This document shows positions 41,087-47,439 of a stretch of DNA of 64,000 nt, piece by piece. A program made the translations under genes and the position numbers. Source of the stretch: Fibrobacterota bacterium (GTDB lineage Bacteria > Fibrobacterota > Fibrobacteria > UBA11236); the NCBI GenBank assembly GCA_028287465.1, contig JAQBPO010000010.1:1-64000 (forward strand). The letters are read 5' to 3'. Numbering within the stretch: the stretch's first letter is position 1; every line of letters begins with the position of its first letter. A model generated the notes under the pieces. It was not told the origin of the DNA. It saw only the letters and a list, made by a program, of their open reading frames with translations, and did not search any database.

Positions 41087-41159
41087 GCCACTTTAGCTCA
41101 GTTGGTAGAGCGGCTCATTCGTAATGAGTAGGTCATCGGTTCAATTCCGGTAAGTGGCT
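41087..41159 (+). tRNA. tRNA-Thr (anticodon CGT)
   Basis: A complete cloverleaf of 73 nt: acceptor GCCACTT/AAGTGGC fully paired, D arm GCTC...GAGC, anticodon stem GCTCA/TGAGT around loop TTCGTAA (anticodon CGT), variable AGGTC and T arm ATCGG-TTCAATT-CCGGT. The discriminator is T and CCA is not encoded. Its 3' half is duplicated at 46906, marking it as the integration target of the island. Confidence 0.95.
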
Positions 41160-41166
41160 CTCTTTT
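41115..41166 (+). repeat. attL: left 52-bp direct repeat in tRNA-Thr
   Basis: It begins TCATTCGTAATGAGTAGG in the anticodon arm and runs through the tRNA 3' end to CTCTCTTTT. It is identical base for base to 46906-46957. The sequences diverge immediately outside on both sides, as expected for site-specific integration. Confidence 0.9.
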
Positions 41167-41342
41167 TTCAGCGTATTTCACGGTATTTGCCCATCAGCCC
41201 TATCAAGGGGCCATGGGAAATATAGTCTTACTACCGAAAATCTACCTCGACAGCCACGAGTTTCACCCTTCTACATTCCATTGTTAAAGGGGACGTCCAA
41301 TGAAACCCTTTACCCAATCCTCCATAGCCAAAAAAGCCACGG

Positions 41343-41927
41343 TCATGAGATACGGGGTTCGTACCTAAAAATGTCATTCACTACATCCTTAATTGTAGAC
41401 GTGAAGCCGCCACGGCTCAGGATTAGGTTACAGTTCTCAGGGCTATGCCCTAGGTATTGGAAAATATTTTTAAACATTTTTTCCCAATAATTATTGGGCC
41501 ATACCTCAAAAACTGAATCAAGATTCGGTCTTGTCAATGGGGTCCCCCAATACTTGGCATCAGGCCCTAAAGCAATTGTTTGATACAAGTCGCGGTGGGT
41601 GCCGAAATGGACATAATCGCTTGGGGCAAGGTTTTCCATTAGATGAATGGATAGGGGCAGTGCATCCAAAACAGAATCTCTTATCACATAATCAGGAAGA
41701 AATTTTGGGTCTTCCGATTGACAGCTACGAAGCAAATCAACAATTTTATGCCCCTTGCTTCTTACCAAATTCGCATCGTTCAATAAAGAAAAGAGAACTC
41801 CTTTCAAGTAGAGTTCCAGGGCATGGCCTACAAGAAAAAGCCGGGATTGATCTAGCCCATTGGGTAAGGCGTAAAAGGCAACAAGGAAATCATCGCCTGT
41901 TAACGCATAGTGCTGCCATTTAGTCAT
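41343..41927 (-). CDS. HEPN-like hypothetical protein (island)
   Basis: A 194-residue protein. The N-terminal half resembles HEPN-type helical domains: SRLFLVGHALELYLKGVLFS followed by RSKGHKIVDLLRSCQ, as in the many GHALEL...GHdL families. The C-terminal half (RDLYQTIALGPDAKYWG, WPNNYWEKMFKNIFQYLG) is specific and recurs in a decayed copy at 43404. HEPN proteins are often RNases of toxin-antitoxin or defence loci; the canonical R-x4-6-H motif is not clear here (RSKGH) and no nucleotidyltransferase partner is adjacent. Role unproven. Confidence 0.6.
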   Translation of the reverse strand: MTKWQHYALTGDDFLVAFYALPNGLDQSRLFLVGHALELYLKGVLFSLLNDANLVRSKGHKIVDLLRSCQSEDPKFLPDYVIRDSVLDALPLSIHLMENLAPSDYVHFGTHRDLYQTIALGPDAKYWGTPLTRPNLDSVFEVWPNNYWEKMFKNIFQYLGHSPENCNLILSRGGFTSTIKDVVNDIFRYEPRIS

Positions 41928-42565
41928 TGCGGAAAAGATAAGTTTTCTTGGTAAGGCTCGGACACACGAACCAACTCCCAGCTAAAAACAAAAGCTGTCT
42001 TACTCCTGGCCACCCCTCTTCCTGGCATAGTGGTTACTTCATTCAACAATGGTACCATGACCATTAATAATGGTGGTATTGCATCATCGTGGGGTAGGGG
42101 TATGCCAGTCTCCCTGTTCATTGGCACCTATGAACACTTCGGAATATCTATCGGTGGGGCAGGCAGGCATAAACTTGGGAGTGAAGGAACGTCCACTCCC
42201 ACGGGCTCAAACTTCCAGCCTATAAAACGAAAATGGAGGCTATCAAGCCTCCCTCTCTCTTTCCCTGTGTATTGTGCCGGCTAGGCAACGACCTTCATAT
42301 GCTTACCTGCATTCTTGCCATTGTAAAAATCCCGGATGGTGCCTGTTGTTCCAACCCTTGCCCTTACGGGTGGGGGTGCCGAATTCATTCAAGTAATTAA
42401 AGATTCCTTTGGTATGGGCGTAAAGGGGGGCGCTATTTAAACAATGGTTTTATCTGAATCTTGTGGTGTAAATTACTCCGACACTTAAATCAAAATGAGA
42501 TATTGGTTACTATGGTTTTTAAATTGAGCCACTAATTCATTTTCAACCAAAGTTTCGAAAGCCAT
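41928..42565. other. AT-rich interval in the island without a confident gene
   Basis: 638 bp. Short frames of 67-84 codons exist on both strands (41924-42127 minus, 42030-42284 plus) but have no ribosome sites and no recognisable families. The minus frame may be a gene remnant. The last 100 bp, very AT-rich, probably hold the promoter of the first PEP-CTERM gene. Confidence 0.5.
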
Positions 42566-43216
42566 ATGAAAAAACTATTTCTCGCTTTATTGGCCTTCAG
42601 TTTCTCACCTGCATTGGCAACTTATTTCACTTTCACAGGCATAGTCACAAGTGTTTACACTTCCGATGAATTTTCAAGTCTAAGGGGATATGTCGGAAGC
42701 CCTGTAGAATATGTTTACTTCGCTGACTTTGCTATTACTCCGTATTACATTAAAGGACCTCTAGGCGATACTAATTGGGTCACAAGCCAGCCAGGGTTTT
42801 ATTCGGAACTTGTTTCTGGCCCGACCATTCTTCCAGAATTTGGCTACCAAAATGATCCAAGTGGAGTAATTGAAGGTCATGTTGGTCTATATAGGACAGG
42901 CGAACTCAAACTATGGGGGGAGACAGAATTCAATTCCAGAATAAATGGACACTACCGGCATATTTTTATGAACGCCTGGAGTCCAGGTGTCACCCTAAGT
43001 GGAATTGGTTCCATTGCAGATGGTTCGGAGATATCATATTACGAATATGACAAGGCCCTTATGGTAAACACTAGTTTAACCCTTACTGGTATCTCGGAAT
43101 CAAACCCGATGGTCCCAGAACCAAAGACATTTGCACTTTTTGGATTGGGCTCACTCGCATTCTTTTTCGTAACTGCAAAAAGAAAATCCATGATCAAAAT
43201 CAGTCAGGCTAAATAG
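42566..43216 (+). CDS. PEP-CTERM sorting-domain secreted protein 1
   Basis: A 216-residue protein with a signal peptide (1-18, ending ALA) and a mature domain beginning YFTFTGIVTSVYTSDEF. It has the C-terminal sorting signal VPEPKTFALFGLGSLAFFFV followed by basic TAKRKS. PEP-CTERM proteins are cleaved and anchored by exosortase, usually with exopolysaccharide. It is a diverged paralogue of the genes at 43804 and 44498 (shared F.G.V.S......GS.V.YV...DF pattern). No exosortase in the window. Confidence 0.85.
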   Translation: MKKLFLALLAFSFSPALATYFTFTGIVTSVYTSDEFSSLRGYVGSPVEYVYFADFAITPYYIKGPLGDTNWVTSQPGFYSELVSGPTILPEFGYQNDPSGVIEGHVGLYRTGELKLWGETEFNSRINGHYRHIFMNAWSPGVTLSGIGSIADGSEISYYEYDKALMVNTSLTLTGISESNPMVPEPKTFALFGLGSLAFFFVTAKRKSMIKISQAK

Positions 43217-43403
43217 TAGGCTACAACCTTAGTACGACATTTTCTAAAAATAAGTTTGGACACGTGCGCTAAATGCCTGCATAAGTCTTTTGGCCATTAG
43301 CCCCTGGCCTCCCACCGAGGTTTAGGTGAAAATCGAGGCTATCAAGTCTTTGTTGACCTGGGATATATTTCCAACTCCTAAGAGTCCCAAGGCCCGCTCC
43401 CCC

Positions 43404-43618
43404 TTAGTAATCAACATGCTTGGCGATTTCATGGAATAAGTCTCTCCAATAGTTAAGAGAGTAGGGCCAATCTTCACCGGCAAAATGAATCTCTGGCCGG
43501 ATGAGCGTTCCCAGGTATTTCGCATCCCGTCCCAAGCCAATAGATTGGTATAAATCGCCATTTGATGGGCTGAAGACCCTGCGCCAACTATTCTGGTCAT
43601 TTATAACGGAGTAATAGA
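43404..43618 (-). pseudogene. Decayed paralogue of the HEPN-like gene at 41343
   Basis: A minus-strand frame ending at TAA (43404-43406) reads GDLYQSIGLGRDAKYLGTLI and SLNYWRDLFHEIAKHVDY. These align with RDLYQTIALGPDAKYWGTPL and PNNYWEKMFKNIFQYLG of the intact gene. No start codon or N-terminal HEPN half is present, so it is a C-terminal remnant. The boundary near 43618 is approximate. Confidence 0.75.
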
Positions 43619-43803
43619 TGTTCAGTGATACGGTCTATAGAAGGTCCACAGGCCATTCTAGGGTCAACGTGATAGGGGACAAGAGATATGACAAAGGAAG
43701 CAGCCCCCTGACGGAGCCCTTAACAGGTTTCTTTTGGAAACCTTAAAACATCCCACTATTTGACCATTTTATGACCGGCTTGCTTATTGCTTTAATTCCC
43801 CTC

Positions 43804-44493
43804 ATGAAAACTCTCAAAGCTGTCGTCCTCTCCATCATTGCCCTTTCAATGTCTACACTGGCGACACCCATTTTCTACCAATTTAAAGGAGTAGTTACCG
43901 AATCAAACGTCACGGATCGACAAGTGGGAAGCGAGGTCCAATACGTTTTTATGCTGGACTTTCAAGAGTTTGGCCTATTTTACGACTACACTGGAAGGAG
44001 TGATCCACGTTACCCCACTTTGATAAGGGCGGAAAACTATGGCCCGTACCAACAGCGGGGATATCTCGCTGAGTACGCAGGTGGAAATGTGATTCCATTC
44101 TCAGAAGGAAGTGCAAGTTCCGGATCGCATTATGGGTATGACAACTGGTTTTCCGGGAATGTGTCAAGTTACCTTCAGACGGATTATGGTAGTCCTACAC
44201 AAAATGGAAAAATTGGATTGGGTAATACCGGAAGTCACGCACATGACTGGAAAATCGTACCGAGTCCATACAGCTTGGACACGGTCCACGCTCCAATTTG
44301 GCATGTTGGACAAAATGACTTCTACGGCATCAACAGTAATGGTGCAGGCGATGTTGTTAGATCCCAACTGACTTTGTGGTCTATTTCTATGGATAACCCT
44401 GCTCCAGCTGTTCCTGAACCGTCTACCTTTGCTTTGATGGGGTTCGGTCTAATTGGACTTTTCACGGTATTCAAGAAGTTGAAGAAGGTCTAA
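43804..44493 (+). CDS. PEP-CTERM sorting-domain secreted protein 2
   Basis: A 229-residue protein (240 if ATG 43771 is used) with a signal peptide (VVLSIIALSMSTLATP). The mature start FYQFKGVVTESNVTDRQVGS and SEVQYVFMLDFQ are followed by the C-terminal VPEPSTFALMGFGLIGLFTV with basic KKLKKV tail. It is strongly similar to the next gene, especially in VVTESNV.DR, NTGSHA.D, P.WHVGQ.DFYG.N.NG and LTLWSIS.DNP. It is preceded by AGGTTTC-TTTTG-GAAACCT (43725-43743), a perfect 7-bp hairpin. Confidence 0.88.
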   Translation: MKTLKAVVLSIIALSMSTLATPIFYQFKGVVTESNVTDRQVGSEVQYVFMLDFQEFGLFYDYTGRSDPRYPTLIRAENYGPYQQRGYLAEYAGGNVIPFSEGSASSGSHYGYDNWFSGNVSSYLQTDYGSPTQNGKIGLGNTGSHAHDWKIVPSPYSLDTVHAPIWHVGQNDFYGINSNGAGDVVRSQLTLWSISMDNPAPAVPEPSTFALMGFGLIGLFTVFKKLKKV

Positions 44494-44497
44494 ACCA

Positions 44498-45286
44498 TTG
44501 GGTATCATTCAAACTGTGAATAAAGCCAAGTTGGTATTCATTTCCATCCTCGGCCTCGCCATGACCTCCATGGCGACTCCCATGTACTATGCCTCCATGG
44601 ATGTTGTTCCCGATTACTACTTCTCCATGGCAAACCCCATTTACTACCAGTTCAAAGGTGTTGTGACCGAATCAAACGTCGCGGATCGATCTTTGGGAAG
44701 CGAGGTACAGTACGTTTTCGTGATGGACTTTCAGAGGTTTGGTCTTCAAGTCTTCGTGGAAAATGTGAATTATCCGGAACACTGGTATACGCACTACAAT
44801 CCGCTCGGGGGGTCATTTTCCTCTATTGGAGATCCTCTGTTTCGTGAATGGGCGGCTGAGTTTGTCGGTGGAGATGTTGTTCCTATCTCTGAAGGTAGTG
44901 CAGAGCGTTCAATAGGAGATTTTTTTGGAAATGACATGTTGCAGAGTGGAAGGATTACTAGCGGAATAAGTACAGACTATGGCGACCCTGTACAAAAAGG
45001 GCGTGTTTCCGTGAGTAACACTGGGAGTCACGCACTTGACCGACATTTCATACCTGATCAAAATACCATGGACACGGCGCGCATTCCCCTATGGCATGTT
45101 GGACAGAGCGACTTCTATGGCGTTAATACGAATGGTAGAGGTGATATTGTTAGGACCCAGCTAACCCTTTGGTCAATCTCAATTGATAACCCAGTTCCCG
45201 CTGTTCCTGAACCTTCAACGGTTGCTCTAATGGGGCTGGGTCTAGTCGGACTCTTCACCGCATACCGGAAGTCGAAGAAAGCTTAG
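44498..45286 (+). CDS. PEP-CTERM sorting-domain secreted protein 3
   Basis: A 262-residue paralogue of the preceding gene, starting 4 bp after its stop, so the two are co-transcribed. Signal helix LVFISILGLAMTSMA, mature YYQFKGVVTESNVADRSLGS and C-terminal VPEPSTVALMGLGLVGLFTA plus RKSKKA. Start is TTG 44498 or GTG 44516. An insertion of about 20 residues after the signal (YYASMDVVPDYYFSMANP) repeats the YY motif, suggesting a small internal duplication. Confidence 0.87.
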   Translation: MGIIQTVNKAKLVFISILGLAMTSMATPMYYASMDVVPDYYFSMANPIYYQFKGVVTESNVADRSLGSEVQYVFVMDFQRFGLQVFVENVNYPEHWYTHYNPLGGSFSSIGDPLFREWAAEFVGGDVVPISEGSAERSIGDFFGNDMLQSGRITSGISTDYGDPVQKGRVSVSNTGSHALDRHFIPDQNTMDTARIPLWHVGQSDFYGVNTNGRGDIVRTQLTLWSISIDNPVPAVPEPSTVALMGLGLVGLFTAYRKSKKA

Positions 45287-45309
45287 GGCAGATGGACAAA
45301 GGGTATGGC

Positions 45310-46197
45310 ATGATTCGATTTATTCTGTTATTTGCAGCTTCAAGTGCATTTGGGGCTGGATATTGTGACCTAATCGGGACCGAAATTTATGCTCAAGACA
45401 AGGTTGGGACCTTTCTTGGAGTGGTGACGGACAACCCCTATTTATCGGAATCCATCACAAATCAGTATGGGACCTATGGATCGAAGTACAATGCTAAAAG
45501 TGTTTTAAACGAGTACGGTTCCTTTGGCGGGAAGTATTCTTCTCACAGCCCGTACAATCCATATACGACAACCCCTCCAGTCTTGATGGAATTTGATGCA
45601 ATCTCCAAGAAGTACGCCCCTGTGGCCTACTTAACGAAAAACAAATACATCGGCGGGGTAATAGCCGACCCTGATTTGCTTTTTGCGACACTCCTCTCAG
45701 GTGATTGCGGCGGGATCTATAACCCCCCAACCATTACGAAAGCGGATTTGATCGTGGACTCTTTGGAAGCATTCCTTTCAGATGACAAAGATTCGATTTA
45801 TGTTTCCTACATCGTTGCGAACATAGGGACTCTTAATTCTTCCGCATTTTCGGTTGGCGTGGCTGTAAGGAACTCTAGGTCGGATACGGTTAAGTTTCCA
45901 CCAATTCTTCCCAACAAGTACCTCGGTGATTTTCGGGGCTTCAAGATAACTGAGGACACTACAAGGATCGGCATTTTTGCTGACTTTTTTGATTCAACCG
46001 TCGAATTCTTGGAGGACAATAACCTCGCCTTTGCGGACTATTTGACTCCAAAAACAACTTCGGCAAGAATTCAATTCCGGTCTAAAGTGTCTTCGATTCC
46101 CAAGGAATTCAACATCCTTGGGCGCAAATCCCTCGGTTCCAAGACAATTACACTCAACCGCAAGCTCCAGGCTGGTTTATTTCGATTCTCCGAATAG
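45310..46197 (+). CDS. Secreted protein with YG-repeat segment and CARDB-like domain
   Basis: A 295-residue protein. The signal peptide MIRFILLFAASSAFGA is followed by a segment with NQYGTYGSKYN, NEYGSFGGKYSS and SPYNPYTTTPP, the pattern of a widespread bacterial family with N-x-YG-x-YGSxYS repeats. The C-terminal half (about 140-250) looks like CARDB adhesion: KADLIVDSLEAFL, VSYIVANIGTLNSSAFSVGV and FFDSTVEFLEDNN. It lacks a PEP-CTERM signal although it follows two genes that have one. ATG 45292 is an alternative. Confidence 0.75.
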   Translation: MIRFILLFAASSAFGAGYCDLIGTEIYAQDKVGTFLGVVTDNPYLSESITNQYGTYGSKYNAKSVLNEYGSFGGKYSSHSPYNPYTTTPPVLMEFDAISKKYAPVAYLTKNKYIGGVIADPDLLFATLLSGDCGGIYNPPTITKADLIVDSLEAFLSDDKDSIYVSYIVANIGTLNSSAFSVGVAVRNSRSDTVKFPPILPNKYLGDFRGFKITEDTTRIGIFADFFDSTVEFLEDNNLAFADYLTPKTTSARIQFRSKVSSIPKEFNILGRKSLGSKTITLNRKLQAGLFRFSE

Positions 46198-46304
46198 GTA
46201 GTGAGCAATAACCCGGTCTAAATGGGTCAACTTAGTTCAGGGGCCTGATCACTTTTGACGTTTCGCACCAAAGCGGCCCACTCAGGGAGGGGCACCCTTT
46301 TGGA

Positions 46305-46791
46305 TTAAGGTAGGTTAAGTGTTCCATGGGCAAGGACGTGATCGATAGCCACTGTTACCAAGTCGGGCCATTCACTATGACCGGGGAAGTAGGGGCCAAA
46401 ATGGTTATGCCCTCGAAGGCGGGTGTATTGTGCTACAACGTCAGAGAGTGGCACTTGGACAGGTTTTAGGAATGGTTCCATGGGGCCAGCGATTGAAGCC
46501 ACTGAGGGATCTTTCTTTGCTTCCCCTAGGTCTCCGGTACGGTTCAAGAACGCTGCCCCATGCCCTCCTAGGGTGCCTGAAAAGGGCTTTTACTGCCCTT
46601 CCAACCCACTTTAAGGATAGCTGTCTTCGCGGTTTGTCGTTTAGCTTGTCCAGGAAAATGAAATCGTGAACCCCAAGGGCTACGCTATGTAACTGGGGGT
46701 CCTTGGTGCATATGCCGTAGACAAGCGGTTTCCCGATGTAGGGGAGGGCTTTATTTTCCCTAATGCAATTTTCGTTGAAGATGCGGGCCAT
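46305..46791 (-). pseudogene. Probable frameshifted gene at the right end of the island
   Basis: Two overlapping minus-strand frames look like halves of one protein. The first, from ATG 46791, reads MARIFNENCIRENKALPYIG and IFLDKLNDKPRRQLSLKWVG. A second frame, from about 46565 to 46305, reads HGAAFLNRTGDLGEAKKDPS and GHNHFGPYFPGHSEWPDL. Joining them needs one frameshift near 46560-46600. No family recognised; sequencing error cannot be excluded. Confidence 0.4.
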
Positions 46792-46905
46792 GATACCTTG
46801 TCTGGACTACGGAATAACTACCGGTGTCCTGTTTCGTTTTCGGTTTCATAGGCTGTCTAAATCGTGGAATTATCGCTGAAAACAAGGTTGTGGCCTACTC
46901 TCCTA

Positions 46906-46957
46906 TCATTCGTAATGAGTAGGTCATCGGTTCAATTCCGGTAAGTGGCTCTCTTTT
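46906..46957 (+). repeat. attR: right 52-bp direct repeat (tRNA-Thr 3' fragment)
   Basis: An exact copy of 41115-41166 without the tRNA 5' half, so it is not a functional tRNA. It marks the right end of the island; GC-rich host sequence resumes after it. Confidence 0.9.
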
Positions 46958-47097
46958 CCTCCTCCCTTCGGTGCTCGGCCCTTAGCGGGCCTAGGCAAGC
47001 CTCCGGCTGGCATATTCTGCAACGTTCCCGGGCTTCCCCCGACTTACCTCTCGTGGCGCATAATCCCAACTATCCCGCCCCACGAAAGGACCTCTCC

Positions 47098-47439
47098 ATG
47101 AAGACGACCTCCCAGACCCTCGCCCATCTCGCCATCGTCGGCATCGCCGCCGGCTTCCTGTCCAATGCCGCCTTCGCCGGCGACAAGGACGCCATGCCCG
47201 CGAAGGACAAGGATACCTCCATGAGCAGCCCCGCTCCCGGTGACTCCGCCATGGCCACCCCCCATGAACACGGATGCAAAGGCATGAACGAATGCAAAGG
47301 CATGGGCGGCTGCAAGATGTCCAAGAAGGATCTCAAGAAAGCCGCCAAGAAGATGGAGATGGGTATGGACAAGGCCGGGAAGGCCCATGATTGCAAAGGC
47401 AAGAACGAGTGCAAGGGCCTGGGAGGCTGCAAGGGCTGA
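47098..47439 (+). CDS. Small exported Cys-rich protein with CKG repeats
   Basis: A 113-residue protein: signal peptide (1-27, ending AFA), an acidic Asp/Met/Pro/Ser linker and two Cys-rich modules, HGCKGMNECKGMGGCK and HDCKGKNECKGLGGCKG, around a Lys/Met helix (KKDLKKAAKKMEMGMDKAG). Each module has three regularly spaced Cys. Such Cys-Lys-Gly repeats occur in small exported proteins, some modified by MNIO (DUF692) enzymes to copper-handling peptides. No such enzyme gene is next to it, so that link is only a possibility. ATG 47098 follows GAAAGGA. Confidence 0.75.
   Translation: MKTTSQTLAHLAIVGIAAGFLSNAAFAGDKDAMPAKDKDTSMSSPAPGDSAMATPHEHGCKGMNECKGMGGCKMSKKDLKKAAKKMEMGMDKAGKAHDCKGKNECKGLGGCKG

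Follow-up and report, generated by a model that had tools for sequence, protein, structure and literature searches.

Cis-mobilizable elements (CIMEs) have kept their att sites and lost their genes for recombination and transfer; they are known at the tRNA-Lys(CTT) gene of Streptococcus agalactiae, and the classical CIMEs of S. salivarius span 1.2-13 kb (PMC5704250, PMC7563491). Among the islands catalogued by Islander, an anticodon-centred class of attachment sites is counted, mostly with 3' fragments, and an integrase gene is required within the island (PMC4383910). PICI-like phage satellites form another related group, with integrase and regulatory genes and packaging genes such as a small terminase. 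Here, we analyzed a 64,000-nucleotide stretch of a Fibrobacterota genome (the window), in which 5.8 kb are enclosed by two copies of a 52-bp repeat matching the 3' part of tRNA-Thr(CGT). We estimate a probability of about 0.7 that this Thr island is what remains of a small integrative element that has since decayed, with its att sites and cargo kept and its integrase lost, as in CIMEs. It comprises the following features, in window coordinates.

41087..41160, +: tRNA-Thr(CGT), read as the target gene, its 3' part being attL (Rfam tRNA, 69 bits)
41115..41166, +: left copy of the 52-bp repeat, read as the attL core (exact repeat)
41343..41927, -: 194-aa protein, weakly HEPN-like
42566..43216, +: PEP-CTERM protein 1, with signal peptide and C-terminal sorting tag
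43407..43634, -: broken partial copy of the HEPN-like gene (47% over 51 aa)
43771..44493, +: PEP-CTERM protein 2
44498..45286, +: PEP-CTERM protein 3, tandem paralogue of protein 2 (54%)
45292..46197, +: 301-aa secreted CARDB-like protein (probable signal peptide by eye, sub-threshold CARDB match)
46308..46806, -: two overlapping open frames adjoining attR, apparently parts of a single broken gene
46906..46957, +: right copy of the 52-bp repeat, read as the attR core, a displaced tRNA 3' half (exact repeat)

The two repeat copies lie in direct orientation with a spacing of 5791 bp and are 100% identical, and the sequences part at the first base outside them at either end (left, C/A; right, T/C). 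Their local alignment scored 104, whereas none of 200 shuffles exceeded 27, and a 31-mer of the repeat, searched with up to three mismatches, occurred at just these two places in the 5.8-Mb genome assembly. The left copy runs from the anticodon stem of tRNA-Thr(CGT) to a few bases beyond the gene end, and the crossover probably took place in the anticodon loop (TTCGTAA, 41118-41124). The DNA between the repeats has a foreign composition, with a GC content of 45.7% versus 61.9% in the rest of the window and a tetranucleotide distance of 0.61, whereas other segments of equal size reached at most 0.195, a threefold difference. The five clear genes of the island had GC3 values of 0.36 to 0.50, as opposed to 0.82 to 0.85 in neighbouring genes. 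Intact genes account for 64% of the interior, and the remaining 36% or so holds broken frames, which supports a decayed element. A first-pass annotation of this DNA had described exact 52-bp ends from the 3' half of tRNA-Thr(CGT) some 5.8 kb apart, flanks that diverge at once and an AT-rich interior, all of which agreed with the repeat, GC and k-mer analyses.

The same genome provided an internal control. We surveyed approximately 46 tRNA genes and up to 15 kb downstream of each, some of these stretches being shortened by contig ends, and two tRNA genes, tRNA-Thr(CGT) and tRNA-Gly(CCC), had a duplicated 3' half. The tRNA-Gly(CCC) gene, located on contig C88, has an exact 53-bp repeat that starts just upstream of the anticodon stem and reaches the CCA end, with copies 6221 bp apart that form the ends of a 6.2-kb element (L037:2902-9199, G000:C88). 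Its genes encode an integrase (immediately next to attR), a helix-turn-helix protein resembling excisionases and a small terminase subunit; no capsid genes were recognised in it, and it looks like a phage satellite. In this host, a repeat arranged in this way is thus associated with a tyrosine integrase, and the Thr repeats are best read as attL and attR of a tyrosine-integrase element. Both elements are of similar size (5.8 and 6.2 kb) and have exact repeats of like layout, but they share no similarity beyond a short tRNA match. Whereas the tRNA-Gly element has the gene set of a PICI-like satellite, a PHROGs scan of seven frames of the Thr island detected no integrase, regulatory or packaging family.

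We then compared the locus with those of four congeners (G002 to G005), all of which had tRNA-Thr(CGT) with a single 3' half and without the island. In G002, the tRNA is identical and gene order is kept to the left and right of the site, with approximately 1.1 kb of unrelated AT-rich DNA between the tRNA and a small Cys-rich gene (at 47.1 kb in the window). Genes of both flanks are also present in G005, with a different 1.3 kb between them, while G004 has only the tRNA and the Cys-rich gene in common with the window, 1.4 kb apart. In G003, similarity covers the genes to the left and the tRNA and ends there. The absence of the island from these genomes was in line with the first-pass expectation of an empty site with one repeat copy; however, an exact junction of the tRNA with base 46958 was not found in any of the four, since other DNA stands behind each tRNA. 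No eroded second att copy was detected above chance in these segments, and no second copy of the island, as judged by its HEPN-like gene, was found in 168 genomes of the phylum. Among the genomes compared, the 5.8 kb were thus found in this one alone, and the position behind tRNA-Thr(CGT) varied across the whole set.

Several other features of these loci were observed. The AT-rich stretch of G002 (L029:11734-12830, 45% GC), in which no second att copy was detectable, is possibly the remnant of an older island. The tRNA-Thr(CGT) genes of G004 and G005 (L030:6697-6772 and L032:6480-6555) are identical to their counterparts elsewhere in the genus as far as the D arm but differ throughout the 3' part, anticodon stem included, as would be seen after replacement of the 3' half by an integrating element. 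The Cys-rich gene (47099-47439 in the window) encodes a small secreted protein with repeated CKGxNECKGxGGCK motifs, which is conserved in the genus and has further copies per genome.

The search for a recombinase covered the island, with six-frame fragments screened against integrase profiles and transposases and other families sought in the listed open reading frames, as well as the rest of the genome. No PF00589 match was found in the island, nor any recombinase or transposase family in its listed reading frames. Four PF00589 proteins are encoded in the genome, namely two of the Xer type, an integron integrase and the tRNA-Gly integrase. One Xer-type protein is XerC-like, and the other, on contig C76, is taken as the second Xer recombinase since its best-scoring counterpart is present in every relative searched. 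The single PF00239 match of the genome is a resolvase-domain protein on contig C25, outside the island. No resident PF00589 protein belongs to the tRNA-Thr site. A tblastn search with 19 integrases gave one match in the island (46558-46779, minus strand, E=0.001, Z=7.0), equalled by 2% of shuffles, where the sequence weakly resembles the core-binding part of one tyrosine integrase. We regard this as an insecure lead: a profile of the matched integrase's family gave E=0.037 on the frames adjoining attR, Pfam gave no match for them and their best plasmid match was DUF1403 (E=0.1). No secure integrase remnant was therefore found in the island by tblastn, profile or Pfam searches. The same frames were also considered as a third HEPN copy, and the similarity was not significant.

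The cargo comprises the three PEP-CTERM proteins, the secreted CARDB-like protein and the weakly HEPN-like protein. The PEP-CTERM family of the island is genus-restricted: outside the island, this genome has a single member (G000:C43), as does each of the four congeners, at 28 to 32% identity. When the genome contigs were scanned with the PEP-CTERM alignment, only the C-terminal sorting-tag part was matched. The GC3 of 0.83 of the chromosomal homologue on C43 argues that the island genes are not recent local duplicates of it. Exosortases have an established role in the processing of PEP-CTERM proteins. One exosortase (TIGR02602) was found in each of the six genus genomes searched, including this one, and in none of seven relatives outside the genus, and the host enzyme probably processes the island proteins. 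The 194-aa protein resembles PF05168 below threshold (E=0.018, 15.6 bits for a cut-off of 22) and had no relative in the collections searched; its gene and the broken copy are 1.5 kb apart. Structure predictions were poor, with mean pLDDT values of 45 (HEPN-like) and 35 (PEP-CTERM).

These results bear on several claims of the first-pass annotation. It had found no integrase or transposase gene in the island, as we did, and had proposed a search of the rest of the genome for a tyrosine recombinase with the tRNA-Thr att site, to which none of the four PF00589 proteins belongs. The secreted PEP-CTERM cargo was borne out by three genes. The decayed second copy of the HEPN-like gene is real, while the HEPN likeness itself proved weak. 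The combination of cargo genes, thought unusual at first, seems less odd with the PEP-CTERM family present in five species of the genus, each with an exosortase. Finally, the annotation had left two options for the missing integrase, loss or mobilisation in trans; the former is now better supported by the broken frames and by the lack of a resident integrase for the site, and we obtained nothing positive for the latter.

Mobilisation in trans would make the island a live satellite, free of an integrase by design and moved by a non-resident helper that targets tRNA-Thr(CGT). Helper-dependent elements are common (PMC11389934), and several of the cargo genes are intact. The perfect identity of the repeats is also compatible with this explanation, as attR lies outside selection on the tRNA and its unchanged state suggests either a recent insertion or continued use. 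Nevertheless, the assembly has no integrase with a tRNA-Thr att site, the att core was absent from the viral contigs searched, none of the 168 genomes of the phylum had a second island to judge by its HEPN-like gene, and no relaxase or packaging gene was among the matched families. We consider such a satellite unlikely, and its fuller version, in which an unseen helper would still deliver PEP-CTERM surface proteins to new hosts and rely on the exosortase of each, quite improbable. A phage parent was also sought with the att core: no viral contig matched, and phage records gave tRNA-like matches alone (80-90% identical or short exact). The evidence favours loss of the integrase over mobilisation in trans, as no resident integrase serves the site, viral contigs lack the att core, and frames near attR and in the gaps between genes are broken.

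Two other routes would require no integrase of the element's own. Incoming DNA that already carried the 3' half of tRNA-Thr may have been captured by homologous recombination, for which the identical 3' halves of G002 and G003 could have offered one-sided homology and no integrase would be necessary. However, homology on one side would not yield two exact ends, and the repeat starts in the anticodon stem, like that of the integrase-bearing tRNA-Gly element, making this origin very doubtful. Hardly credible is a CALIN, an array of cassettes that lacks an integrase and would have been supplied by the integron integrase of contig C13 (TIGR02249, 380 bits), a gene that does adjoin AT-rich small genes. 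Tandem attC sites would not make tRNA half repeats, the GTTATAC core read from C13 is absent from the island, and no attC-like pair was found there with a strict pattern that also missed the host's own sites. The C13 locus itself (L035:1-2888, G000:C13), at a contig end, combines the integrase gene with AT-rich small genes and GTTATAC/GTATAAC motifs and is probably a sedentary chromosomal integron. Some relatives have large PF00589 proteins close to contig ends, which may represent the same thing.

The decayed, CIME-like element is thus the reading supported by the exact and unique repeat, the foreign composition, the absence from four congeners and the lack of a matching integrase. A tyrosine integrase would have inserted the element into the chromosome by recombination within the anticodon region of tRNA-Thr(CGT); the tRNA 3' half brought in by the element would have rebuilt the tRNA-Thr gene, and the displaced 3' half would mark the right end of the element. 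That the repeats are still perfectly identical suggests that this happened fairly recently. The integrase and any transfer or packaging genes would have been lost later, leaving attL, cargo and attR, and exit or movement would require the arrival of an integrase with matching specificity to act on these att sites. Export and sorting of the PEP-CTERM proteins would fall to the host exosortase.

As in CIMEs, the Thr island lies at a tRNA 3' end, retains both att sites as exact 52-bp repeats and its cargo, and has no recombination gene of its own and no conjugation or mobilisation genes (relaxase and T4SS families were absent among the island ORFs scanned). Unlike them, it stands alone rather than in tandem with another element and belongs to another bacterial phylum. 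Formal CIME membership includes descent from an ICE or IME, whereas the ancestor here may equally have been a phage satellite; regarding ICE/IME ancestry, the island showed no relaxase remnant, and its integrase likeness is a weak lead alone. With an intact tRNA gene at one end and, at the other, a 3' fragment displaced without change of orientation, it also matches the anticodon-centred class of Islander, but has no integrase gene, and tools that require one, such as Islander, would miss it. The Thr island is a further example of an already known type of element and involves no new mechanism. Its interest lies in the presence of two tRNA islands in one genome, one complete and one without an integrase, and in its cargo of PEP-CTERM surface proteins, found in a genus where every member searched encodes an exosortase. 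The different DNA behind tRNA-Thr(CGT) in every species examined indicates that tRNA-targeted islands turn over in this little-studied lineage.
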